From positions 3,382,501-3,446,500 of the forward strand of contig NZ_CP104007.1 in assembly GCF_029201545.1 (NCBI RefSeq): a DNA stretch of 64,000 nt, in the 5' to 3' direction. How positions within the stretch are numbered: position 1 is the stretch's first letter; each line of letters begins with the position of its first letter. Below are positions 1,672 to 48,974 of this stretch, piece by piece. Below the pieces are notes generated by a model that had not been told where the DNA came from, ran no database searches, and was given only the letters and a program-made list of their open reading frames with translations. Position numbers and translations under genes: made by a program. This DNA is from Devosia sp. FJ2-5-3. GTDB lineage: Bacteria > Pseudomonadota > Alphaproteobacteria > Rhizobiales > Devosiaceae.

Positions 1672-1785
1672 CAAGTCGTCAGGAAACAGACCGAAGGCAA
1701 ATTCGGCCTGGGAGATGGAACGAGCACTACGTGTCCGAACCAACAGAATGGCGGTGACCGGAATTGTCCACCGCAAAGGGTAATT

Positions 1786-2049
1786 TCAGCTCCGCGCCGA
1801 TCGCGCCCGGGCCGCGTTGAGCACCATGCCCGCGCTGCGCCCCTTTTCAGCCCTCATCGCCTCAAGAATGTCAGACCGGGTGACACCGAGATCGCGCAGC
1901 CGCGCACTATCGAGTTCGAGCAGGCTTGAGAGGGCTTTGCGCTGACGACGGCGAGCGATCTGCCTCGCCAAAAAGGCGACCAGCGTGCGAACAGGGTTTG
2001 CGGGCGTTGCGGCCGCAAGTGACCGCTCGCCGGGAAGCGAGAGAGCCAT
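1786..2049 (-). CDS. DUF1127 small protein
   Basis: An 87-residue protein whose central section (QIARRRQRKALSSLLELD, then RLRDLGVTRSDILEAMR) is a DUF1127 domain, a small Arg-rich module widespread in alphaproteobacteria. Members have been linked to RNA turnover, phosphate/carbon metabolism and stress responses in rhizobia and Rhodobacter; the role here is not known. The start at 2049 is supported by GGAGAT about 6 bases upstream; a longer frame from 2145 is open but lacks a site. It is divergent from the LysR gene, which may regulate it, and is followed by a leftward terminator. Confidence 0.82.
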   Translation of the reverse strand: MALSLPGERSLAAATPANPVRTLVAFLARQIARRRQRKALSSLLELDSARLRDLGVTRSDILEAMRAEKGRSAGMVLNAARARSARS

Positions 2050-2198
2050 TTCAGATCTCCAAAAGAGCGGCAGGGACGACCGGCGCACCTGGGCCATAGC
2101 GCGTGCCTGCGTTGATGGAAAATGGATATCGCGCTGGACATCCATTCGTCCAACAAATAGATTTCATCTCGCCAATCAATCCGCGTGATGAGGCCGAA

Positions 2199-3086
2199 AT
2201 GACTGCCCCGCTCGATCTCGACCAATTGCAGAGCTTTTGCGCAATTGCCGACTGTGGAAGCTTTACCGAGGCTGCGCGCCGCGTGAACAAGACGCAGTCC
2301 GCTGTCTCCATGCAGATCAAGCGGCTGGAAGAGCGGCTTGGCCAAATCCTGCTTCTGCGCGACGGACGCAGCGTTTCCCTGACTCATCATGGAGAAGTGC
2401 TCTACGAGCGCGCCCGCAAAATGCTGCGCACCAATGCCGAGATCCTCGATCATTTCTCCGAGGGGGACCTTGCCGGGTCGATCCGGTTTGGCGTGCCCGA
2501 CGATTATGCCGTGCGTTTGCTACCGGTGATCCTGTCGAGCTTCCAGCGCACACACCCAAAGATTGCCGTGGATGTCTCCTGCATGGCCTCGGAACTGCTG
2601 CTGGAGGGCATGCGGGCCGGACGCTACGACCTGATCGTCTTCACCCAGGGCACGGGGCACAATTTCGGCGAACTGTTCCGCACCGAAAAGATGTTCTGGG
2701 TGTCGAGCCATGGCGGTCGTGCGCTCGCCAGCGAACCGCTGGCCATTGCCTGCGGGCCCAATTGCTGCATCTGGCGCAAGGACGCCCTCGAGGCCCTGGA
2801 GCGGACCGGCAAGGACTACCGCGTCGCCTACACGTCTTCGAACGCCACGGCCATCTCCTCGGCCGTGCTGTCCGATCTGGCCGTCGGGTTCCTGCCGGAA
2901 AGCGCTCTCCAACCCGGCATGCGGGTTGTTTCGGAGGAACATGGTTTGCCCACGCTCGGGGACGCACAGATCGCCCTGATGCGCTCCAGCCACGCCTATG
3001 GAGGTATCTACGACGCCCTGGCCAATCACATCGTGCAGTCGATGGGCAATCTCGAGCAGATGGACACCGCCGTGGCGGCAGAGTGA
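2199..3086 (+). CDS. LysR-family transcriptional regulator
   Basis: A 295-residue LysR-type regulator. The N-terminal winged helix-turn-helix (residues 1-65) is clear: LQSFCAIADCGSFTEAARR followed by KTQSAVSMQIKRLEERLG. A linker helix and a periplasmic-binding-protein-like effector domain follow (residues ~90-290, including IRFGVPDDYAVRLLPVIL). The start at 2199 places the helix-turn-helix at the usual distance from the N-terminus; the frame is open further upstream to 2103. The ligand is unknown. The only divergent neighbour is the DUF1127 gene, which is a candidate target. Confidence 0.9.
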   Translation: MTAPLDLDQLQSFCAIADCGSFTEAARRVNKTQSAVSMQIKRLEERLGQILLLRDGRSVSLTHHGEVLYERARKMLRTNAEILDHFSEGDLAGSIRFGVPDDYAVRLLPVILSSFQRTHPKIAVDVSCMASELLLEGMRAGRYDLIVFTQGTGHNFGELFRTEKMFWVSSHGGRALASEPLAIACGPNCCIWRKDALEALERTGKDYRVAYTSSNATAISSAVLSDLAVGFLPESALQPGMRVVSEEHGLPTLGDAQIALMRSSHAYGGIYDALANHIVQSMGNLEQMDTAVAAE

Positions 3087-3143
3087 TCATTCCGTTCTCT
3101 GTCCGCACTTGACCGAAGGCGGCAATTCGACCACCAACGAGCC

Positions 3144-4760
3144 ATGGCCGATATCCTTTCCAATGCTGCCGAGTTCACAGTTTCCGAGATTGCCCAGGCG
3201 GTAAAGCGCACCGTCGAGGACGAGTTCGGCCATGTGCGGGTGCGCGGTGAAATCTCGGGTTATCGCGGACAGCATTCGTCGGGCCATGCCTACTTCACCC
3301 TTAAGGACGACGCCGCCTCCATCGACGCGGTGATCTGGAAGGGAAGCTTCGGGCGGCTGACCTTCAAACCCGAAGAAGGGCTTGAAGTCATCGCCACCGG
3401 GCGACTGACCACCTTCCCGCGATCGTCCAAATACCAGATCGTCATCGACAATATCGAGCCTGCCGGCGCCGGTGCGCTCATGGCTCTCCTCGAAGAGCGG
3501 CGCAAAAAGCTGCTCGCCGAGGGACTGTTCGCGCGTGAACGCAAGCGCCCCCTGCCCTATCTGCCTCGCGTGATCGGGGTGATCACCTCGCCGACCGGCG
3601 CGGTGATCCGCGATATTCTCCATCGCCTCGCCGATCGTTTCCCGAGTCATGTGCTGGTCTGGCCGGTACGCGTGCAGGGTGAAGGCTGTGCGCCGGAAGT
3701 GGTCAACGCGATCGAGGGGTTCAACGCGCTACTGCCCGACGGCGCTATCCCCCGCCCGGACCTCCTGATTGTCGCCCGCGGTGGCGGCTCGATAGAGGAT
3801 CTTTGGGGGTTCAACGAGGAAGCCGTCGTTCGGGCCGTCGCCGCATCGCAGATTCCGGTCATTTCGGCCGTTGGGCACGAGACCGACACAACGCTGGTCG
3901 ACTATGCTTCCGACATGCGGGCGCCGACACCGACCGCGGCCGCCGAGGCTGCCGTGCCGGTGCGCGCCGAGCTCATTGCCTATGTGGACGACCAGGGAAA
4001 CCGTCAGCGGCAGGCCGCCCGCCGGAGCCTTGCGACCCTCCGAGACCGACTTCGCGCCGCAGGTGCGGGTCTGCCTCGCCCTGCCGAACTCGTCGCCACG
4101 CAGCGGCAAAGCCTGGACCTGGCGGCGAGCGAGCTTTCAGGGGCATTGCGCCATTTCGTCCAGTCGCGACGGCTGGCGTATTCCCAGCTTGCCAGTGCGG
4201 TGCAGCCACGGCTCGTCCGGCAGCGCCACACCGAACTCGGCGACAAGCTGCGCAATTTCCAGCACCGCTCGGATGCGGGCCTGGCCAAGACCATAGAGCG
4301 CGCTCGACTGACCTGTGACCCCACAACATTACGGCTTGAGCGCAGCATGGCACACTCGCTCGAAGGCAAACGAACGGCGCTCGGACGGCTATCGCCGCGG
4401 CTTTCCACCCAGCCCCTCAAGGCGGAACTACGCCATGCCCAGGGGCAGCTTGCACCCGTGGCCGCGCGCCTTGCGAAGGGGGCCATCTCAATTATTCCCG
4501 AGCGCCGCCATGGTCTCGAACAGACGGGAAAGCTGCTCGCTAGCCTGGGCTATCGGAACGTGCTCGCGCGTGGCTATGTGCTGGTTCATGACGAAAAGGG
4601 CGGACTGATCACGGAAAAATCGGCGCTGCAGCCTGGCGATCTACTGCAGCTGACTTTTGCCGATGGCGATATCGGGGCGTCAGTTGCCGGCGCCCCTCCC
4701 GCCAAGCGCAAGGCATCCCGTTCACCATCGGACGACGGGTCGCAGGAAAGCCTCTTTTGA
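3144..4760 (+). CDS. xseA: Exodeoxyribonuclease VII large subunit
   Basis: The catalytic and DNA-binding subunit of exonuclease VII, which degrades single-stranded DNA from both ends with XseB. The 538-residue protein has the N-terminal OB fold (VSEIAQAVKRTVEDEFGHVRV, residues ~10-110), the central nuclease domain with GVITSPTGAVIRDILHRL, RGGGSIEDLWGFNEE and SAVGHETDTTLVDYASD, and a long helical C-terminal region that binds the small subunit. The DUF2093 gene follows 49 bases downstream, a common alphaproteobacterial arrangement. xseB is not in the window. Confidence 0.95.
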   Translation: MADILSNAAEFTVSEIAQAVKRTVEDEFGHVRVRGEISGYRGQHSSGHAYFTLKDDAASIDAVIWKGSFGRLTFKPEEGLEVIATGRLTTFPRSSKYQIVIDNIEPAGAGALMALLEERRKKLLAEGLFARERKRPLPYLPRVIGVITSPTGAVIRDILHRLADRFPSHVLVWPVRVQGEGCAPEVVNAIEGFNALLPDGAIPRPDLLIVARGGGSIEDLWGFNEEAVVRAVAASQIPVISAVGHETDTTLVDYASDMRAPTPTAAAEAAVPVRAELIAYVDDQGNRQRQAARRSLATLRDRLRAAGAGLPRPAELVATQRQSLDLAASELSGALRHFVQSRRLAYSQLASAVQPRLVRQRHTELGDKLRNFQHRSDAGLAKTIERARLTCDPTTLRLERSMAHSLEGKRTALGRLSPRLSTQPLKAELRHAQGQLAPVAARLAKGAISIIPERRHGLEQTGKLLASLGYRNVLARGYVLVHDEKGGLITEKSALQPGDLLQLTFADGDIGASVAGAPPAKRKASRSPSDDGSQESLF

Positions 4761-17940: not shown

Positions 17941-18504
17941 TCGGTGTCATTTCCCGCGCAAGCGGGAGCCTTTGTTTTCCTGCACAGCGATTTCTTACTG
18001 AGGTCCCCGCTTTTGCGGGGATGACGCGGTGGAGGCGAGAGCTATCGCGGCTCACATCCCCCCACCCCAACCCTCCCCGCGAGGGGGAGGGAGTTCGGCC
18101 GGTGGGTGGGGAGGTGCGCGGATGATCCCTCTCCTGGTCGGTGTCATTTCCGCGCACGCGGGAAGCTTTGTTTCCTTGCACTCAGATTTTCAACTGGGGT
18201 CGCCGCTTTTGCGGGGATGACGCGGTGAAGGCGAGAGCTGTCGTGGCTCTCATCCCCCCACCCCAACCCTCCCCGCGAGGGGGAGGGAGTTCGGCCGGTG
18301 GGTGGGGAGGTGCGCGGATGATCCCTCTCCTGGTCGGTGTCATTTCCGCGCACGCGGGAAGCTTTGTTTTCTTGCTCAGCGATTTTTGACTGAGGTCCCC
18401 GCGATCGCGTGGATGACGCGGTGGGGGCGAGAGCTATCGTGGCTCTCATCCCCCCACCCCAACCCTCCCCGCGAGGGGGAGGGAGTTTGGCCGGTGGGTG
18501 GGGG
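17941..18504. repeat. Tandem array of a ~196-bp composite unit (about 2.9 copies)
   Basis: Units start at 17941, 18138 and 18334 (TCGGTGTCATTT). Each unit holds module A, a REP-like pair around GTCATTTCC-CGCGCAAGCGGGA and CCCCGCTTTTGCGGGGATGAC, and module B, the C-rich palindrome CCCTCCCCGCGAGGGGGAGGG with its TTCGGCCGGTGGGTGGGG flank. Modules B are nearly identical; modules A have diverged more. Short reading frames with NPPREGEG-like peptides here are products of the repeat. Confidence 0.9.
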
Positions 18505-18560
18505 AGCCCGTCCTCAGGCAACTGCCTGCCTTCTTGATCTCAACGCCCCTCACTCCAGGC

Positions 18561-26864: not shown

Positions 26865-28049
26865 ATGGGATGGCTATCCGCAGAGGCAGCGCTGGCGCTG
26901 CTAGGGACCAAGCCGCAGACGCTCTATGCCAATGTCAGCCGCGGGCGGATCGCGGCGCGGCCTGATCCCGAGGATTCACGGCGCAGTCTTTACAAGCAGG
27001 ACGATGTCGAGCGGCTGGCCGGGCGGCAGCGCGGGCGGCGGCCGGCGCAGGCTGTGGCAGCGGAAACCATTGCATGGGGCGAGCCGGTGCTGGAAACGGC
27101 GATATCGACCGTGGCCGGGGGGCGGCTTTTCTATCGTGGGCAGGATGCGGCCGCGCTGGCGGAGCATGCCGGGCTGGAAGCGGTGGCAGCGCTGCTTTGG
27201 GCTTCGGGTTCTGGTGGAGGCTTCGGGGCTTCCTCACCCCCTCCCGGCCTCCCCCTGGAAGGGGGAGGAGTTGGGCCGGTGCGCTTTGGTGGGCATGAGG
27301 GGCTATCCCAAGTCTATGTCGATATGGCCATGCTCGCGGCCACGGACATGCCGACGGCGGGACGGACGCGCGCGGTCTTGCTCAGGGACGCCGAGCGCGT
27401 CGTCGGCACAGTGGCCAACGCCCTGGCGGGGCCGGGTGAGCAGGCGTTGCATGAACGATTGGCGCAGCGATGGGCGCGGCCCGAGGCGGCCGATGTGATC
27501 CGCAGGGCGCTGGTGCTGCTGGCCGAGCACGAACTCAATGCCTCGACCTTTGCCGCACGGGTGACGGCCTCGACGGGCGCGCCGCTCTCGGCGGCCGTGC
27601 TGGCGGGGCTGGCGGCGCTGTCCGGGCCGCTCCATGGCAATGCCAGCCAGAGCATGGCCGGGCTTCTCGAACAGGCAGGGCGGCTGGGGGTGGAGGCGGC
27701 GCTCGCCGCCCATCTGCGGCAAGGACAGGCCCTGCCCTGCTTCGGGCACCGGCTCTATCCGGACGGCGACATCAGGGCCAGGACGCTGATGGCAGCGTTT
27801 GAGGTGCCGGCGGTGTTTGCGCAGCTGGCGGAGGCGGGCGAAGGGCTGAGCGGGGAAAGACCCAATGTCGATTTCGCGCTGATGGCGATGAGCGCGGCGT
27901 TCGATCTGCCCAGGGATGCGCCGCTGCAGATTTTTGCGCTGGGGCGGAGCGTTGGGTGGATCGCCCATGCGCTGGAGCAAGTCGAGACCGGGACGCTGAT
28001 CCGGCCACGGGCGCGGTATGTGGGGAACCCCCACCCGGCCTCCCCCTGA
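26865..28049 (+). CDS. Citrate synthase-like protein with N-terminal MerR-type HTH
   Basis: A 394-residue protein. Residues 1-55 are a helix-turn-helix of the excisionase/MerR type (LSAEAALALLGTKPQTLYANV, RSLYKQDDVERLAGR). Residues ~65-390 are a citrate synthase fold keeping HELNASTFAARVTAST, GPLHGNAS, CFGHRLYPDGD and the catalytic-Asp motif NVDF. Such HTH-citrate synthase fusions are known in bacteria and may act as metabolite-responsive regulators; that role is inferred here from the adjacent palindrome. Residues ~123-143 (SSPPPGLPLEGGGVGPVRFGG) come from a C-rich repeat inserted in frame. The last residues, NPHPASP, and the stop codon also come from a repeat. Confidence 0.85.
   Translation: MGWLSAEAALALLGTKPQTLYANVSRGRIAARPDPEDSRRSLYKQDDVERLAGRQRGRRPAQAVAAETIAWGEPVLETAISTVAGGRLFYRGQDAAALAEHAGLEAVAALLWASGSGGGFGASSPPPGLPLEGGGVGPVRFGGHEGLSQVYVDMAMLAATDMPTAGRTRAVLLRDAERVVGTVANALAGPGEQALHERLAQRWARPEAADVIRRALVLLAEHELNASTFAARVTASTGAPLSAAVLAGLAALSGPLHGNASQSMAGLLEQAGRLGVEAALAAHLRQGQALPCFGHRLYPDGDIRARTLMAAFEVPAVFAQLAEAGEGLSGERPNVDFALMAMSAAFDLPRDAPLQIFALGRSVGWIAHALEQVETGTLIRPRARYVGNPHPASP
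27235..27293 (+). repeat. C-rich palindromic repeat inserted in frame in the HTH-citrate synthase gene
   Basis: Core CCTCCCCCTGGAAGGGGGAGG (about 27248-27268) plus a GTTGGGCCGGTGCGCTTTGGTGGG flank that matches intergenic family members. It is read as LPLEGGGVGPVRFGG without a stop. Confidence 0.85.
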
Positions 28050-42303: not shown

Positions 42304-42317
42304 AGCTGCTCTCGCAT

Positions 42318-42440
42318 ACCCCCTCCTAACCTCCCCCTAAAGAAGGGGGAGGGACAGATCGCGTTCGGGGCGCGGTCGGCCGTCAGCCACGATGCGCCCC
42401 TCCCCCTTATTCAGGGGGAGGTTGGGTGGGGGTTGCCTCC
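42318..42440. repeat. Two C-rich palindromic repeats
   Basis: Cores CCTCCCCCTAAAGAAGGGGGAGG (about 42331-42353) and CCCTCCCCCTTATTCAGGGGGAGG (about 42398-42421), the latter with a TTGGGTGGGGGTT flank, fill the gap before the convergent cobO. Confidence 0.8.
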
Positions 42441-42445
42441 CAGCC

Positions 42446-43087
42446 TTAAAACTCGATGCCCTTTTGGGCTTTTACGCCGGCGCGGAAATGGTGCTTGATC
42501 TCGGTCATTTCGGTGACGAGGTCGGCGATTTCGATCAGTTCGTCCTTGGCGTTGCGGCCGGTGACGATGACGTGCTTTTCAGCAGGCTTGTTGGCGAGGG
42601 TTTCGACGACTTCCTCGATGGGGAGATAGTCGTAGCGCAGGCAGATGTTGAGCTCGTCGAGCAGGACCATGTCGTAGCTCGGGTCCATGATCAGCGCCTT
42701 GGCCTGGTCCCAGGCCTTGCGGGCGGCGGCGAGGTCGCGCTGGCGGTCGGCGACGTCCCAGGTAAAGCCTTCGCCCATGGCGTTGATGGTCACCTGATCG
42801 GGGAATTTGTCGAGCACGGTGCGTTCGCCGGTGTTCCAGACACCCTTGACGAATTGCACCACGCCCACACGCATGCCATTGCCCAGGGCCCGGAAGACCA
42901 TGCCGAAGGCGGCGGTGGACTTGCCCTTGCCCTTGCCGGTGTGGACGACAAGAAGACCCTTTTCCTCGGTCTTGGTGGAGAGGATCTTGTCGCGGGCCGC
43001 CTTCTTCTTCTTCATTTTTTCGGCGTGATAGGCGTCGCGTTCGGCCTCGGACATAAGATCGGTTTTCTTGAGGGGCTTTTCGGTCAC
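42446..43087 (-). CDS. cobO: Cob(I)yrinic acid a,c-diamide adenosyltransferase
   Basis: Adds the 5'-deoxyadenosyl ligand to cobalt (CobA/CobO/BtuR family). The 213-residue protein has the P-loop VVHTGKGKGKSTAAFGMVF, the family stretch GWNTGERTVLD-like (GVWNTGERTVLDKF), and DMVLLDELNICLRYDYL followed by HVIVTGRNAKDELIEIADLVTEM. It overlaps the end of the P-loop kinase gene by four bases, so it is the last gene of the riboswitch-controlled operon. Confidence 0.95.
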   Translation of the reverse strand: MTEKPLKKTDLMSEAERDAYHAEKMKKKKAARDKILSTKTEEKGLLVVHTGKGKGKSTAAFGMVFRALGNGMRVGVVQFVKGVWNTGERTVLDKFPDQVTINAMGEGFTWDVADRQRDLAAARKAWDQAKALIMDPSYDMVLLDELNICLRYDYLPIEEVVETLANKPAEKHVIVTGRNAKDELIEIADLVTEMTEIKHHFRAGVKAQKGIEF

Positions 43088-43650
43088 TGAAGGCGCTCCG
43101 CGTGTTCGATGATCAATTGGGCCGCGCGCTCGGGCGGCAGAATGGTGGTGTCGAGATCGAACCGGTTCGGGTGGTCGATCCGCAACAGGGGACGACGCTG
43201 GCGCACGAGGGCCGCGCCGGCGGCATCGGTCATCTTGAGACGATCCTCACGCTCGGGGCTGGGAATGCGTTCGTCGTGAGCCGCGTCAGACGCAGTGAGG
43301 ATGACGGGGGCGAAGGTGGCGCCGCGTTTTCGCGACACTTCAACCACCTCGGCAAAAGCCTCGTGGTCGAGCGGATCGTCTTCCATCAGCGCATTGGTGA
43401 GCACGAAGCTGGCTTCGGGCCGGGCGATCTCGGTCATGGCCCGTAGCGCCTCGCGGCGGATGGTCATGATGATATCCCAGGCGCTGTCGGGGATCGGGGT
43501 CGATCCATCCTCCCGGATCAGCGAGAAGACGATGTTGTTGGCGAGGTGATTGTCGAAGAGGCGCGCATTGGTAAGCGCGCAGATCTGCCTCGCGATCGTC
43601 AGCTTGCCGACCCCGTAGTGGCCGATGAGATAGATGATGGTGTTGTTCAT
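43084..43650 (-). CDS. P-loop NTPase of unknown role inside the cobalamin operon
   Basis: A 188-residue protein with an N-terminal Walker A-like loop (IYLIGHYGVGKLTIARQIC) followed by FDNHLANNIVFSLI and a helical lid region. It resembles shikimate-kinase-like or nucleotide-kinase-like P-loop proteins. The loop ends in K-L-T rather than K-S/T-T. It overlaps both cobN (start at 43650, cobN stop at 43647) and cobO by four bases, so it is translated with them. No known cobalamin step is assigned to it. Confidence 0.72.
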   Translation of the reverse strand: MNNTIIYLIGHYGVGKLTIARQICALTNARLFDNHLANNIVFSLIREDGSTPIPDSAWDIIMTIRREALRAMTEIARPEASFVLTNALMEDDPLDHEAFAEVVEVSRKRGATFAPVILTASDAAHDERIPSPEREDRLKMTDAAGAALVRQRRPLLRIDHPNRFDLDTTILPPERAAQLIIEHAERLQ

Positions 43651-46600
43651 GCCTCCCCCTCGAGGAAAGCATAGACGGAGTTGGAACGGGGCGACCAGAG
43701 ACCGCGCTGGCGGGCGTCCCGGAATTTTTCGATGAGCTCGTCATAGCCATAGCGATTGACCGATTTCAACCAGTCACGGATGGCGTCGTTTTCGACGAAG
43801 GCTTCGAAGGCCAGATCGAAATGGTGGGTTTTCACCGCGCCGGTGGTGGCGGCGTAGGCGAACATGAAATCGACTGTGGCGATGATTTCGAAGGCGCCGC
43901 GATAGCCATGGCGCTGCATGCCGGCAATCCATTTGGGATTGACGACGCGCGAGCGCATGACATGGGAGATTTCCTGTTCCAGCGTCCGGATCTTTGGGGT
44001 TTCGGGGCGGGAATGGTCGTTGTGATAAGCCGCCGGTTTGTGGCCGGAGAGGGTTTCGGCGGCGGCGGAGAGGCCACCCTCGAACTGGTAGTAATTGTCA
44101 CTGTCGAGCAGATCGTGCTCGCGATTGTCCTGATTGTGGAGGACGGCGTCGATCTGGCCGAGGCGGGCGGCGAAGCGGTCGTGGAGGGCAATGCCGTCGG
44201 CCTTTGCGCCATAGGCGTATTGGCCCCAGCGCAGGAACTGGTCGGCGAGATCGGCCTTCTCGGACCATTTGCCATTGTCGATGAGTTGGCCGAGACCGGC
44301 GCCATAGGTGCCCGGCTTTGAACCGAAAATGCGGGCGCCGGCTTCGAGGGAGGCCTCGGCTTCGGTCTTGCCAGCCGCCATGAGGCCAAGGGCTTCGGCG
44401 CGCATGCGAGCGGCGATGGGGTTATCTTCTTCGGGCTCATCAAGCGCCCCGACGGCGCGGATGGCACGATCGAACAGGGCGATCTGGGCCGGGAAGGCGT
44501 CGCGGAAGAAGCCGGAAATGCGCAGGGTGACATCGACGCGCGGGCGGCCGAGCTTGGCCAGCGGCACGATTTCATAGCCGGAGACGCGGAGGGAACCGGG
44601 GTCCCAGGTGGGTTTGGCGCCGATGAGCGCGAGGGCCTGGGCGATATCGTCGCCGCCGGTGCGCATATTGGCCGTGCCCCAGACGGAGAGGGCAACGGAT
44701 TTGAGATAATGCCCGTGATCCTGGAGGTGGCGGAGCACGAGGCTTTCGGCGGATTTCCGGCCGAGTTCCCAGGCGCTCGGCGTGGGGACGGCGCGGGCAT
44801 CGACGGAATAGAAATTGCGCCCGGTGGGCAGGACATCGAGCCGGCCACGGGACGGTGCGCCGGAGGGACCGGGGGCGATGAATTTGCCGTCGAGGCCGGC
44901 GAGGAAAGCGGCCATTTCAGAGGGGCCGGATGCGGCAAGTCGCGGCAGGATGAGAGTTTTCACCGTGTCGAGGACGGCGTTGGTGGCGGTCCACTCGGGG
45001 GGACAGGTTCGGGTGCCGGTAATGAGCTCGGCGGCGAGGGCTTCGAGGTACTCGAGGATGTCACCGATGGTGCGGGGATTTACCCCCCTCCCAGCCTCCT
45101 CCTCAAGGGGGGAGGTGCCGAGCGGTGTTCGTGGAGGCAGCTGGGGGCCCGTCCAGGGCGCACCGAGTTCAGCCGTCAGTGGATCGACGCCGAGTTTGAG
45201 GTCGTCGGCGAGGGCGCGGATGAGGGAGTTTTCGGAGGGGCTTTCGCCGCGGGGAATGCGGGCAAGGGCGACGGCGAGATCGCGCTGGAGATCGCCCGCT
45301 GGCGACTGGCCAAAGATGTGCAGGCCATCGCGGATCTGGGCTTCCTTGAGGTCGCAGAGGAAGTTGTCGATCTTGATCAGGGCCTCGGTCTCGTCCTCGG
45401 GCAGTCCGATATCGGTGTCGAGGCGGCTGTCGCGGGTGAAGTCGAGAATGCGGCTTTTGAGATCGGCCAGACGGCGGCGATCCATGCCGGAGGCGGCGTA
45501 ATATTCATCGAGCAGCGCTTCGAGGTCTTTTAAGGGACCATAGGTTTCGGCGCGGGTGAGCGGGGGTACGAGGTGGTCGATGATGACCGCACCGGTGCGG
45601 CGCTTGGCCTGGGTGCCCTCGCCGGGATCGTTGACGATGAAGGGATAAAGATGGGGCAGCTGGCCCCAGAGCGCGTCGGGATAGCAATCGGCGTCGAGCG
45701 CCGTGGCCTTGCCGGGCAGCCATTCGAGCGTGCCATGTTTGCCATTGTGCACCAGGGCATGGGCGCCGAATTCGTGGCGGAGCCAAAGATAGGCGGCGAT
45801 ATAGGCGTGGGGCGGGACCAGCGCCGGATCGTGATAGCTCTCGGTCTCGTCGAGCTGGTAGCCGCGCGCAGGCTGGAGCAGGAGCACGATATTGCCGAAA
45901 CGGTGCGCCGGAAGATGGAAGGCATTTTCGCGAATGAAGGGATCGGTCGCGGGATCGCCCCAACGGGTGGTGACGGCCTCGCGGGTTTCTTCGGGGAGCG
46001 CGGCGAAGAGTTCGGCATAGCGCGCGAGCGGGAGGATGGCGGCGGAAGTGCCGCGCTGGGGACTGGCGTTGGTGGGGCCGGACTGGAGGAGATTTATGAG
46101 GTCGGCTGAGGTGGAGGGGAAGGCCCCCTCATCCCAACCGAATTCGGATGCGAATTCGGTGACCCTTCGGGCACCTTCTCCCTCGAGGGGAGAAGGGGAC
46201 GGAGCCGAGAGATCGTAGCCGGCGCGCTCGAGTTCGGCGAGCATACGCACGGTGCTTTCGGGGGCGTCGTAGCCGACGCCGTTGGCGAGGCGCCCGTCGC
46301 GGATGGGGTAGTTGGCGAGGACGATGGCGATGCGGCGGTTTTCGCGGCTGGTGGCGCGGAGGATGGCCCAGTTTTTCGCGAGGGTGACGGCGCGGGCGAT
46401 GCCCGAATGATCAGGGGCGTAGGCGGTAAGCGGGCACTGGGTGCGCTCGTGCCAGACAGCGTCGGCCTTATGGCCGACGAGCAAGCCACCGATGCGGCCA
46501 TCGACTTCGGGCATGACGAGATACATCGCCATGTCCTTTGACGAGAGGCCGAGATTATCGGCCTGCCATTGCGCCTCGGAGCGGCCGGACTGGATGAGCT

Positions 46601-47582
46601 GGATGACAGGGGCATCGGTGCCGGCGAAGGGGTTTGATTTGTCGTCGAGATCAGCGATGCCCAACGCGAAGGCGGTGAGGTTGAGGATGACGGACGGCGG
46701 AAAGGCAGCCAGAGCATTCTGGACGAAGCGGACGCAGGCGGCTTCCTTGAGTGAGGAGACCAGTAGCGGCACGGGGGCGAGACCCTGGGCTTCAAGCTCG
46801 GCGATCAGGGCTTCGAGCGTGGCGGTGCCGGCACCTTCGAGGGCGGCGCGGTAGAAAAGGATGGGGGTGTAACTCGGGCCGATGTGCTCCGCGAGAACGC
46901 CCCCCACCCCAGCCCTCCCCGCGGGGGGGAGGGAGTGCGGCCGGTGGACGTGGATGGAGCGCAGGCCCACTTCGTCGGTCATGCCGGTTTTGGGGTGCCA
47001 GAGGCCGAAGCGGGGGAAGGGTTGCGGCGCCGCCAGCCCTGTGTCAGCACCGCCCCCCACCCCAACCCTCCCCTCGAGGGGGAGGGAGTGAGATCGAGGC
47101 TGCTCCGACAGAAACGAAAGCGCCGCAAGGATTGCGTCGGAATTGTCGGGGCCGCCGGCGACGAAGAGGTGGTGGAGGGCCAGCCAGTCGTCGGGGGGAA
47201 TGGTCGAGCGGGACTGCAGAATGGGGTCGGGATTGGCATCGCCCGGCAGGAGGACGAGCGGGATTTTGCGGTTGGCGCAGAGGGCGGTGATTTCGTCGAC
47301 GCCATATTGGAAATAGGCGACGCCGCCGATGAGGCGGAGGACGACGAGGCGGGCATGGGCGACTGTCTTGTCCAGCCACATGTCGACGGAGAGATTATTG
47401 GCGAGGCGCAGCGTGTTGGCGAGGCGGAGTTGGTCTTCCCCTGCCCGGTCGGCGGCGGCGGCGAGCATGGCCAACTCGCTGTCGGCAGCGCTGGCGAAGA
47501 TCAGCGCGCCGGGGCGCTGGGCGAGGTCGATGGCCTCGCCTTCCTGCTGGATGGCGCCGGCCTGGGCGGAGAGGAGGTGCAT
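43647..47582 (-). CDS. cobN: Cobaltochelatase subunit CobN, with four in-frame repeat insertions
   Basis: Large subunit of the ATP-dependent aerobic cobaltochelatase, which inserts Co into hydrogenobyrinate a,c-diamide with CobS and CobT (not in this window). The 1311-residue protein is a CobN/magnesium-chelatase H-type protein. Segments seen are ILFYRAALEGAG, IAIVLANYPIRDGRLANGVG, ALVHNGKHGTLEWLPGKA, YDELIEKFRDARQRGLWS and EVDGRIGGLL. Four peptides read from C-rich palindromic repeats interrupt it near residues 161-177, 212-228, 458-486 and 815-834 (LPLEGRVGVGG, LPPAGRAGVGG, SPLEGEGARRV, SPLEEEAGRGV). The frame stays open throughout. The start overlaps the PhnA-like stop (TGATG). Confidence 0.93.
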   Translation of the reverse strand: MHLLSAQAGAIQQEGEAIDLAQRPGALIFASAADSELAMLAAAADRAGEDQLRLANTLRLANNLSVDMWLDKTVAHARLVVLRLIGGVAYFQYGVDEITALCANRKIPLVLLPGDANPDPILQSRSTIPPDDWLALHHLFVAGGPDNSDAILAALSFLSEQPRSHSLPLEGRVGVGGGADTGLAAPQPFPRFGLWHPKTGMTDEVGLRSIHVHRPHSLPPAGRAGVGGVLAEHIGPSYTPILFYRAALEGAGTATLEALIAELEAQGLAPVPLLVSSLKEAACVRFVQNALAAFPPSVILNLTAFALGIADLDDKSNPFAGTDAPVIQLIQSGRSEAQWQADNLGLSSKDMAMYLVMPEVDGRIGGLLVGHKADAVWHERTQCPLTAYAPDHSGIARAVTLAKNWAILRATSRENRRIAIVLANYPIRDGRLANGVGYDAPESTVRMLAELERAGYDLSAPSPSPLEGEGARRVTEFASEFGWDEGAFPSTSADLINLLQSGPTNASPQRGTSAAILPLARYAELFAALPEETREAVTTRWGDPATDPFIRENAFHLPAHRFGNIVLLLQPARGYQLDETESYHDPALVPPHAYIAAYLWLRHEFGAHALVHNGKHGTLEWLPGKATALDADCYPDALWGQLPHLYPFIVNDPGEGTQAKRRTGAVIIDHLVPPLTRAETYGPLKDLEALLDEYYAASGMDRRRLADLKSRILDFTRDSRLDTDIGLPEDETEALIKIDNFLCDLKEAQIRDGLHIFGQSPAGDLQRDLAVALARIPRGESPSENSLIRALADDLKLGVDPLTAELGAPWTGPQLPPRTPLGTSPLEEEAGRGVNPRTIGDILEYLEALAAELITGTRTCPPEWTATNAVLDTVKTLILPRLAASGPSEMAAFLAGLDGKFIAPGPSGAPSRGRLDVLPTGRNFYSVDARAVPTPSAWELGRKSAESLVLRHLQDHGHYLKSVALSVWGTANMRTGGDDIAQALALIGAKPTWDPGSLRVSGYEIVPLAKLGRPRVDVTLRISGFFRDAFPAQIALFDRAIRAVGALDEPEEDNPIAARMRAEALGLMAAGKTEAEASLEAGARIFGSKPGTYGAGLGQLIDNGKWSEKADLADQFLRWGQYAYGAKADGIALHDRFAARLGQIDAVLHNQDNREHDLLDSDNYYQFEGGLSAAAETLSGHKPAAYHNDHSRPETPKIRTLEQEISHVMRSRVVNPKWIAGMQRHGYRGAFEIIATVDFMFAYAATTGAVKTHHFDLAFEAFVENDAIRDWLKSVNRYGYDELIEKFRDARQRGLWSPRSNSVYAFLEGEA
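45081..45139 (-). repeat. C-rich palindromic repeat in frame in cobN (insert 4)
   Basis: CCTCCTCCTCAAGGGGGGAGG-like core between TACCCCCCTCCC and GTGCCGAGCGGTGTTCGTGG. It is read as TSPLEEEAGRGVN. Confidence 0.8.
46124..46210 (-). repeat. C-rich palindromic repeat in frame in cobN (insert 3)
   Basis: This element contains CACCTTCTCCCTCGAGGGGAG and, beside it, the perfect 9-bp inverted repeat CCGAATTCG/CGAATTCGG (46138-46159). It is read as SPSPLEGEGARRVTEFASEF. Confidence 0.8.
46900..46948 (-). repeat. C-rich palindromic repeat in frame in cobN (insert 2)
   Basis: CCCTCCCCGCGGGGGGGAGGG core with a GTGCGGCCGGTGG flank, nearly the same as module B of the tandem array at 17941-18504. It is read as HSLPPAGRAGVGG. 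Confidence 0.85.
47052..47100 (-). repeat. C-rich palindromic repeat in frame in cobN (insert 1)
   Basis: CCCTCCCCTCGAGGGGGAGGG core preceded by CCCCCCACCCCAAC. It is read as HSLPLEGRVGVGGG. Confidence 0.85.
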
Positions 47583-47854: not shown

Positions 47855-47892
47855 ACCCCCACCCTTGATCCCTCCCCACTAGGGGGAGGGAG
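47855..47892. repeat. C-rich palindromic repeat
   Basis: CCCTCCCCACTAGGGGGAGGG core with a CCCCCACCCTTGAT flank, between cobW and the PhnA-like gene. Confidence 0.75.
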
Positions 47893-47915
47893 ACGATGAA
47901 CATGAGCGTCCGTGA

Positions 47916-48974
47916 CTAGGCCGCGAGAGCGGCGGCGCGCTGGAGGCTCTGGGTGATCGCGGCGCGATCGAGCGGGCTTTCGCCGATGACGACGAGGCTG
48001 GTCTGGCGGGTTTCGTCAGCCTTCCACGGGCGGTCGAAATAGGCCGTAACGCGGGGGCCGACGGCCTGGATGGCCAGACGCGCGGCGGCGCCGGGAACAG
48101 CGGCAAAGCCTTTGAGGCGCAGCACATCGTGGGCCTTGATCGTGTCGGCGATGATGGCGAGCAGCTGGTCCTTGCCCTCGATGGCGGGCAGGTGGATCGA
48201 GAAGCTGTCGAAATCGTCGTGCTCGTGGGTCTCCCCGCCGTGCTCAAGCTCGTGATGGCTGGGGCGGTTGGCGATGTCGTCTTCCGAGCCCATGCCCATG
48301 CCGAGCAGCGCGGTGATGTCGACATGGCCATTGGCGGCGCGGACGATACCGACGCCGGGGCGCAGCTCGGCGCGGATATTGGCTTCCACCTTTTCGAGCA
48401 TTGCGGGATCAACAAGATCAGTCTTGTTGATGATGATCATGTCGGCGGCCGAGAGCTGATCTTCGAAGAGTTCGCCCAGCGGGGTTTCGTGATCGAGCAT
48501 TTCGTCCTGGCGGCGCTGGGCATCGACGGCGGCTTCGTCGGAGGCGAAACGGCCCTCGGCAAGCGCGGCCGCGTCGGCGACGGTGACGACGCCATCAATG
48601 GTGACCTGGGCCTTGATCTCGGGCCAGTTGAAGGCGCGGATCAGCGGCTGCGGCAGAGCGAGGCCCGAGGTTTCGATGATGATGTGATCGAACTTGTCGG
48701 GGCGGGCCAGGAGGGCCTGCATGGTGGGAATGAACTCATCGGCCACGGTGCAGCAGATGCAGCCGTTGGAAAGCTCGACCATATCCTCTTCGCGGCAGGT
48801 CTCGTCGCCGCAACCGGCGAGGATATCCTTGTCGACACCGAGATCGCCGAACTCATTGATGATCAGCGCGATGCGCTTGCCCTTGGGGGCATGGGCCAGC
48901 ATGTGGCGCACAAGCGTGGTCTTGCCGGCACCGAGAAAGCCGGTAATGACAGTGGTGGGGATCTTGGTGGTCAT
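47916..48974 (-). CDS. cobW: CobW-family GTPase
   Basis: A G3E-family GTPase and metallochaperone associated with cobalt delivery in aerobic cobalamin synthesis. The 352-residue protein has Walker A VITGFLGAGKTTLVRHML, the metal-binding CxCC motif (LSNGCICCTVADEF) and the GTP-specificity motif MIIINKTDLVDP. A His/Glu-rich loop (HHELEHGGETHEHDD) lies before the C-terminal CobW_C domain. It overlaps cbtA by four bases. Confidence 0.95.
   Translation of the reverse strand: MTTKIPTTVITGFLGAGKTTLVRHMLAHAPKGKRIALIINEFGDLGVDKDILAGCGDETCREEDMVELSNGCICCTVADEFIPTMQALLARPDKFDHIIIETSGLALPQPLIRAFNWPEIKAQVTIDGVVTVADAAALAEGRFASDEAAVDAQRRQDEMLDHETPLGELFEDQLSAADMIIINKTDLVDPAMLEKVEANIRAELRPGVGIVRAANGHVDITALLGMGMGSEDDIANRPSHHELEHGGETHEHDDFDSFSIHLPAIEGKDQLLAIIADTIKAHDVLRLKGFAAVPGAAARLAIQAVGPRVTAYFDRPWKADETRQTSLVVIGESPLDRAAITQSLQRAAALAA

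Follow-up and report, generated by a model that had tools for sequence, protein, structure and literature searches.

How does a conserved enzyme come to carry, within its reading frame, several copies of a repeat that otherwise sits between genes? The question is raised by cobN, the gene of the cobaltochelatase subunit CobN, in Devosia sp. FJ2-5-3; it lies in a stretch of 64,000 nucleotides (contig NZ_CP104007.1, positions 3,382,501 to 3,446,500), which we call the window and whose first letter is position 1 in what follows. A preliminary description, made from the letters of the window alone, had reported four palindromes in cobN that are read through without a stop or frameshift. All four were found again, and no stop interrupts the reading frame between 47582 and 43647 at any of them. 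Here we describe two new observations: genes of the family DUF559 are linked to palindromes of this kind at loci across Pseudomonadota, and a complete DUF559 domain, framed by such palindromes, lies in frame in the mid loop of CobN. We consider it probable that the palindromes and DUF559 form one mobile system, for which the disordered loops of CobN would be tolerated landing sites. No report of a link between DUF559 and triplex palindromes, or of DUF559 residing in frame in CobN, was found in the literature covered, which leaves out most subscription journals. The link would supply a candidate enzyme for a class of bacterial repeats that is common yet unexplained, and joining the two makes both testable at once.

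Triplex-type palindromes in the cobN reading frame

The four hairpin cores lie at about 45094-45116, 46174-46196, 46912-46935 and 47065-47088, and on the coding strand a purine tail comes after each hairpin, ending near 45081, 46124, 46899 and 47052; the order in all four copies is hairpin, then tail. They are read in one shared phase as TSPLEEEAGRG, PSPSPLEGEGARRV, HSLPPAGRAGVGG and HSLPLEGRVGVGG, with PLEE or PLEG in three of these peptides and PPAG in one, just as first described. The copies differ: three have a CTCCCC-type stem (imperfect at 45094-45116), and the copy at 46174-46196 has a CTTCTCCC-type stem, with an inner palindromic stretch between this stem and the tail.

What kind of repeat is this, and might it be a product of chance? 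The motif consists of a pyrimidine arm, a short loop, a purine arm and a purine tail that mirrors the purine arm. A scan for this hairpin-plus-mirror-tail geometry returned 36 sites in the window, where a palindromic site may be called on both strands, versus 0 in one base shuffle. It lists three of the cobN copies (45095/45115, 46932, 47085); the hairpin of the fourth (46174-46196) is present, with its tail beyond the spacing that the scan permits. In the whole genome, a search for a 31-base motif that tolerates one mismatch yields 120 matches, and one for a looser hairpin core yields 293 sites; the reversed controls yield 0 and 3, respectively. Because the genome matches far exceed the reversed controls and the shuffle, the cobN palindromes are not due to chance. 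By their geometry, we assign them to the G/C-rich intrastrand triplex motifs (TMs).

TMs have been described before. In the accessible sections of Holder et al. (2015, PMC4666352), TM_ECO of E. coli K-12 is a G/C-rich motif of the class II intrastrand triplex type, always intergenic and without remnants of transposases or integrases around it; over 260 bacterial genomes are said there to contain G/C-rich triplex palindromes, which are associated with genome instability. The Devosia repeats resemble TM_ECO, as described in those sections, in their arm, loop, arm and mirror-tail geometry, their many copies, the occurrence of some inverted pairs and the variation of loci between relatives; unlike TM_ECO as described there, they also occur in frame in CobN and are linked to DUF559 (PMC4666352).

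The gene that carries them is, by every comparison made, in good order. Its product matches Pfam PF02514 at 1155 bits and the CobN equivalog TIGR02257 of NCBIfam above its cut-off, and the closest relatives of the protein are those of Devosia; related solved structures are 9uk9 (CobN) and 7c6o. For the CobN core, the ratio of nonsynonymous to synonymous substitution rates (dN/dS) is 0.09 in the comparison with the sister L001; three other relatives give 0.13-0.15, and these values point to a conserved gene under purifying selection. A decaying or duplicated cobN was considered and rejected on account of this low dN/dS and of the single copy in the genome (4.19 Mb, one contig). Neither a repeat-free orthologue with the same peptides nor a decaying cobN replaced by another copy was found.

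Are the palindromes insertions? An alignment of CobN from Devosia and outgroups indicates that they are lineage-specific, in-frame insertions into loops, a possibility that the preliminary description had raised. The length of CobN varies mainly at four sites, namely two N-terminal loops (N1 and N2), a mid loop (M) and a C-terminal loop (C). Most outgroup proteins have short loops (L054 and L065 have longer loops of their own type). The CobN loops are likewise short, TM-free and without TM peptides in a pair of Devosia genomes whose palindromes number 0 and 5. Among 30 aligned CobNs, which include that of Pelagibacterium L017, a TM-type hairpin occurs in loop N1 of 18, N2 of 10, M of 17 and C of 9, counting presence of a hairpin only; automatic stem-type letters were left unused, as the hairpin loop enters into them and some CTCCCC stems are assigned the wrong letter (e.g. 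L001 loop N2). For the CobN of L259, whose N-terminus was not located, the stop-to-stop frame was taken. Summed loop length rises with the number of palindromes in the genome (Spearman 0.48, n=22). CobN is a recurrent host of TMs across Devosia, and the load that had seemed unusual is not peculiar to this strain.

The loops also exchange their contents. The window and L001 have CobN cores that are 94.8% identical, and all four loops are occupied in both; the stem subfamily differs between the two in N1 and in M, whereas the stems in N2 and C are related but differ in sequence. Since such close sisters differ in what their loops contain, the occupants of the loops must turn over. In a predicted structure of residues 1-560, five stretches fall below 50 in predicted local distance difference test score (pLDDT): the three given in Table 1, all of them TM-coded, and residues 1-13 and 424-438. 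The TM-carrying loops in this part of the protein are therefore predicted to be disordered, in agreement with the earlier placement of the two N-terminal segments in a loop.

Other inserts were seen in the same loops. Two further peptide types, one with HGEPVEPRGRA and one around PGLTGQSMDH or PGLSRQSMDHR, occur in the CobN loops of L003, L008, L009, L012, L013 and L026 and resemble repeat families distinct from the TMs. A third shared insert (approximately SLQRSDLRQEGQESYARLD) occurs in loop N1 of the L002 and L045 proteins, with a similar insert in the mid loop of L259, and the cyanobacterial Roseofilum protein (L054) has tandem PAPTGWEIQNIAEPQ-type repeats in the equivalent N-terminal loop. 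Several unrelated repeats may thus make use of CobN loops.

DUF559 genes beside the palindromes and within CobN

What accompanies TMs elsewhere? The answer suggested by our survey is DUF559 (PF04480), which Pfam lists as of unknown function. The nearest solved folds to the DUF559 domain are 3hrl and I-Bth0305I (3r3p) and, more weakly, Vsr (1cw0), and E16, D44, E55, D57, H61 and other residues (L030 domain numbering) are invariant in 80 other and 9 embedded domain rows. From these matches we take DUF559 to have the fold of Vsr and the EDxHD homing endonucleases, with conserved acidic and histidine residues; YcjD was placed in the PD-(D/E)XK superfamily earlier, according to the part of that paper available (PMC1189080).

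The linkage between DUF559 and TMs across Pseudomonadota is tight and oriented. A polypyrimidine hairpin lies within 350 bp of the DUF559 domain at 34/34 loci in Devosia, 25/25 in the order and 24/24 in the phylum, i.e. at 83/83 Pseudomonadota loci, a set that includes one domain in an HsdM protein (L140), which is not a free-standing gene. Loci of less than 3,000 bases were excluded from flank tests, which retained 25/29 loci of the order, 28/30 HNH loci and 29/30 ParE loci. The same 350-bp test found no hairpin beside HNH (0/28) or ParE (0/29) genes in the same Devosia genomes; these controls hold few independent sites, and a control from a sample of the window's own genome was therefore added. 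There, a hairpin lies near 130 of all 790 genes, 30 of 256 genes of at most 200 aa and 69 of 256 isolated genes, and hairpins lie on both sides of 7/790, 2/256 and 7/256, respectively, versus 17/34 of the Devosia DUF559 loci. A stricter hairpin is present within 300 bp of DUF559 at 33/34 loci of the genus, 22/25 of the order and 22/24 of the phylum, and hairpin density is 3.5-3.7 per kb near DUF559 versus 0.02-0.14 farther away.

Orientation and stem type follow the gene as well. Among loci L066-L152, 80 of 87 have a readable domain. In the orientation count, 80 of 80 loci have a hairpin on at least one side, 47 of them on both. Where oriented TMs could be read on both sides (35 loci), the arrangement is '><', with the tails toward the gene, at 29, '>>' at 5 and '<>' at 1; the 43 oriented pairs of neighbouring TMs in a genome sample (864 kb, about a fifth of the genome, window included) comprise 25 '<>', 10 '><' and 8 '<<'. 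Mapped onto a DUF559 tree of 74 loci, TM stem type, which was assigned by majority and of which many loci hold two, changes 12 times, versus a mean of 28 and a minimum of 23 in 200 shuffles; within Devosia there are 6 changes versus 12 when shuffled (minimum 8). Locus L114, which has a very long branch, was kept in the first DUF559 tree and excluded from the second.

At the level of genomes, DUF559 and palindromes occur together. Of the 47 genomes that carry DUF559 (best E<1e-10), 24 contain at least five CCCTCTCC palindromes, versus 10 of 153 others, weaker matches being counted as absence (21 of the 153 had only such matches), and the rank correlation between DUF559 and palindromes within the genus is 0.55. 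The genome of the window has five DUF559 genes; in the genus, 47 of 61 genomes have at least one match, with 0-9 per Devosia genome. Units of this kind also turn up in other settings. A hairpin lies beside the gene at 10/10 fetched plasmid DUF559 loci, three of which are from Deinococcus (L308 and L309 come from different strains of the same species), and 12 of 72,556 plasmid records match an embedded DUF559. Three Sphingomonas DUF559 units lie inside gene clusters, e.g. between sufB and sufC, and in E. coli K-12 a TM lies in the gap between fabI and ycjD, an annotated DUF559 gene.

Two side observations concern plasmids. On the Deinococcus plasmids L304, L307 and L310, DUF559 units lie in the same 4-hydroxyphenylacetate cluster, beside different genes. 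The Photobacterium plasmid L313 has an array of 13 TM-like hairpins (1757-3044) after its DUF559 match.

As a rule, a DUF559 match occupies a short open frame by itself. In nine Devosia-type genomes, a complete DUF559 domain instead stands in frame in the mid loop of CobN, between TM-coded peptides (L020, L024, L025 from a Rhizobiales bacterium, L026, L028, L030, L256, L259 and L260; the last and L056 are one contig, from a metagenome-assembled genome of D. ginsengisoli in which the cobN frame is broken in the assembly). In L030, PF04480 splits PF02514, and the only other Pfam match at E<=0.001 is PF18741, below its cut-off; no intein domain was found in this search. An intein was accordingly rejected for L030, there being no splicing (Hint) domain around the embedded nuclease. 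The embedded domain is predicted with moderate confidence, in blocks of about 69-84 pLDDT, the TM-coded flanks lying below 50, and its dN/dS is 0.10-0.24 in 6 of the 12 closest pairs (dS could not be estimated in the other six). In L256 (G044), the mid loop holds an in-frame tandem array of alternating TM pairs, and CobN there reaches about 1698 aa. As CobN illustrates, a conserved enzyme can take up elements of this kind, and grow in length, while staying intact.

Is CobN the only host? Twenty long open frames around DUF559 were examined, six of them CobN (L254, L256-L260) and one HsdM, a type I DNA methyltransferase (L271, G205:C2, about 3001-3324), from genome G205, which lies outside the class of the window; in this second host the insert sits in frame between HNW and YQDIPGFCKSA. 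The long frame of L263 is a weak DUF559 match at the end of a helicase-like protein. The other twelve were rejected as hosts, being judged read-through or antisense frames. Among these twelve, the long frames of L255, L264 and L272 extend into apparent alaS, pheT and murB genes.

One mobile system or separate travellers

The mechanism that we infer, namely cutting at TMs, copying by repair, nuclease-driven spread and a direction of movement, would build on what can be read directly from the loci: the geometry, the linkage, residence in frame, turnover in the same loops and conserved nuclease residues. A complete unit would be a short DUF559 gene set between two TMs that are inverted relative to each other, and solo TMs would be its non-autonomous derivatives. 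DUF559 would nick or cut at TMs, or at TM-like hairpin or triplex structures exposed when the DNA is single-stranded; repair with a different TM-bounded unit as template would then cause TMs to spread, be swapped and be removed. Within genes, only in-frame events at disordered loops would survive; CobN has four such loops and would for that reason collect TMs, and in some Devosia the whole unit, nuclease included, would have settled in frame in the mid loop without an intein. We give an even chance to a wider proposal: that these are members of an unnamed, widespread mobile class whose triplex-forming palindromes would spread jointly with a tiny nuclease of the Vsr fold, with CobN loops as a safe harbour, DUF559 as the missing TM mobility gene and repeated in-frame homing into one loop without splicing.

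How does this compare with known systems? A parallel in organization is that of repetitive extragenic palindromes (REPs) and their associated tyrosine transposases (RAYTs), in which, in the sections of the source available (PMC2817692), a gene is flanked by inverted palindromes, solo copies are dispersed and palindrome type tracks the protein tree; inverted flanks occur here at 30 of the 35 DUF559 loci with both sides oriented. The enzymes differ, in that RAYT is an IS200/IS605-type (Y1, PF01797) transposase and DUF559 a PD-(D/E)XK, Vsr-like nuclease (PMC2817692, same sections). The GT(A/G)G head of the RAYT type was not seen in the TM copies inspected, of which no systematic scan was made. 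DUF559 shares its fold with EDxHD/Vsr-like homing endonucleases such as I-Bth0305I, likewise with its domain within a host protein, and homing behaviour would be consistent with sporadic presence at one CobN site and with tree incongruence. In the accessible part of one report, a DUF559 gene is named among the intein-containing genes of Thermosynechococcus and DUF559 is called a homing-endonuclease family (PMC9403480). In contrast to intein-borne DUF559, no intein domain was found in the CobN host, TMs flank the unit, and DUF559 genes are for the most part short, free-standing frames. For the Caulobacter DUF559 protein VsrA, likened to Vsr, the text available describes a requirement in the DNA-damage response without a cytosine methyltransferase (PMC12907096), and so at least one DUF559 member probably acts on DNA in cells; VsrA is interpreted there as a mismatch-repair enzyme, and the string 'palindrom' is absent from the main text.

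What is the history of the embedded domains? On a tree of the sampled DUF559s, a branch (support 85/94, not starred) has all nine to the same side of it, a placement that suggests a single entry of DUF559 into cobN. On the tree of the CobN core the embedded label changes 7 times and is hardly clustered (equally few changes in 118 of 500 shuffles), and the grouping implied by the CobN tree is rejected for DUF559 by the approximately unbiased test (p-AU 0.018). The pattern is consistent with what would be expected from repeated transfer into the same CobN site; one old entry followed by many losses, with two old variants, could also account for it. The closest filled and empty pair is formed by the sisters L024 (filled) and L035 (empty).

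A number of points weigh against one mobile system driven by DUF559. The incongruence test used 108 columns, its group was named after the first DUF559 tree had been seen and its set includes L260, with its broken cobN frame. No target-site duplication and no clean empty site were found, the linkers of L024 and L035 being different. Among the controls, the HNH loci seem to be one orthologous gene, and several ParE matches adjoin that HNH gene; the DUF559 loci are the best-scoring matches, not a random draw, and at 33 of 80 the hairpins are confined to a single flank. In Devosia, 7/34 DUF559 and 6/28 HNH loci have long hairpins when their composition is left free (12-base arms), and generic exact hairpins likewise do not mark DUF559 there; hairpins at large do not separate DUF559 from HNH, and the link is therefore to polypyrimidine hairpins. 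The abundance statistics ignore phylogeny, and ten genomes counted as lacking DUF559 have at least five palindromes. Three TM-rich genomes of the genus have no DUF559 match at E<=0.001 (G056 with 272 palindromes, G028 with 195 and G033 with 100), and a single system must there invoke nuclease loss or another mover; their palindromes could be relics that outlasted the nuclease. Finally, linkage is no proof that DUF559 moves TMs, as DUF559 may itself insert into them.

This last possibility has a more explicit form, in which other processes, such as replication slippage, gene conversion or host repair, would spread the TMs, and DUF559 would be a free-standing gene of homing type that lands on TMs without producing them. 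The TM-rich genomes without a DUF559 match and the homing-endonuclease affinity of the family, by assignment (PMC9403480, as available) and by the match to 3r3p, would favour it; however, the TMs on either side of DUF559 prefer the '><' geometry, in contrast to the more frequent '<>' of other pairs, and TM type follows the DUF559 tree, neither of which a random visitor would be expected to show so clearly. We consider this account unlikely. We think it much less probable still that TMs are terminator or attenuator parts of DUF559 genes copied elsewhere by chance: hairpins do lie close to the ends of DUF559 open reading frames (ORFs), but a Devosia genome may hold up to hundreds of TMs against 0-9 DUF559 matches, TMs occur in frame inside genes, and a still earlier study, as cited by Holder et al. 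(PMC4666352), found the motifs to have neither promoter nor terminator activity.

Could the CobN loops simply be fast-evolving, low-complexity linkers in which palindromes arise by slippage, unrelated to the intergenic repeats? The loops are predicted to be disordered and they evolve fast, but they share the hairpin-plus-mirror-tail motif with hundreds of other copies, hold whole DUF559 units and, in L256, tandem arrays of TM pairs, and are short in the two genomes with 0 and 5 palindromes; slippage in isolation is already contradicted and scarcely credible. The preliminary description had likened the repeats to Rickettsia palindromic elements (RPEs), and they share with these, as far as the available text of the source describes them (PMC2229807), a palindromic character, an intergenic presence and in-frame insertion into unrelated proteins, here CobN and a citrate-synthase-like protein, with HsdM for the DUF559 unit. 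We give next to no credence to membership in RPE families: the cobN copies measure 37-74 bp versus 105-146 bp (PMC2229807, same text), have triplex-motif geometry and come with a candidate partner enzyme in the linked DUF559, and no RPE-named match was found at E<=1 in NCBIfam, a library expected to include RPE models. The reading that we prefer remains a single system of TMs and DUF559.

Palindromes elsewhere in the window and genome

How exceptional is cobN within its own genome? The 864-kb sample holds 146 hairpins, of which 135 are located outside called genes. The 11 in-gene hairpins comprise 4 in cobN, 1 in a citrate-synthase-like gene (Table 1), 1 in a doubtful ORF at 177585, where a TM lies near the start, and 5 weak ones, which have coding sequence on both sides and no tail visible by eye. 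Within this sample, which was not blind, as the window had been picked for its cobN feature, cobN is an outlier for in-gene TMs. The idea that other genes hold as many TMs as cobN was rejected, since the remaining five in-gene hairpins are weak and tail-less. The preliminary description had proposed a search for the repeat inside other genes: the window has a fifth in-frame copy, and no convincing in-gene TM was seen in the 800 kb sampled outside it. Reading frames are only slightly more often open in TMs than elsewhere, with 4.3 of 6 frames open in 50-bp TM segments versus 3.8 of 6 in other intergenic segments.

Table 1. Positions of cobN and of the TMs discussed here (window numbering)
Feature	Position	Strand	Basis or remark
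cobN, cobaltochelatase subunit CobN, 1311 aa, intact	43647..47582	-	ORF; PF02514; TIGR02257; single copy; core dN/dS
TM palindrome 1, loop N1 (about residues 165-177), peptide SLPLEGRVGVGG	47052..47088	-	hairpin and tail; pLDDT<50 at 168-178
TM palindrome 2, loop N2 (about residues 216-228), peptide SLPPAGRAGVGG	46899..46935	-	hairpin and tail; pLDDT<50 at 220-232
TM palindrome 3, mid loop M (about residues 462-486), CTTCTCCC-type stem	46124..46197	-	pLDDT<50 at 461-467
TM palindrome 4, C-terminal loop C (about residues 822-834), peptide TSPLEEEAGRG	45081..45117	-	hairpin and tail
Fifth in-frame TM, in citrate-synthase-like gene 26865-28049 (+), peptide PPPGLPLEGGGVGPVRFGG	27235..27269	+	gene: PF00285, 2.1e-56
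Inverted TM pair outside called genes, far side of ORF 42446-43087	42315..42437	.	
Intergenic TM upstream of cobN, beside ORF 47916-48974	47855..47894	.	
Three near-identical TMs, 196-bp spacing, outside called genes	18055..18510	.	array, same TM family

Of the two ORFs named in Table 1 beside intergenic TMs, we take 42446-43087 to be cobO-like, and 47916-48974 is presumably cobW-like. The hairpin of the fifth in-frame TM spans 27247-27269, and the citrate-synthase-like gene that holds it has a weak helix-turn-helix match at its N-terminus.

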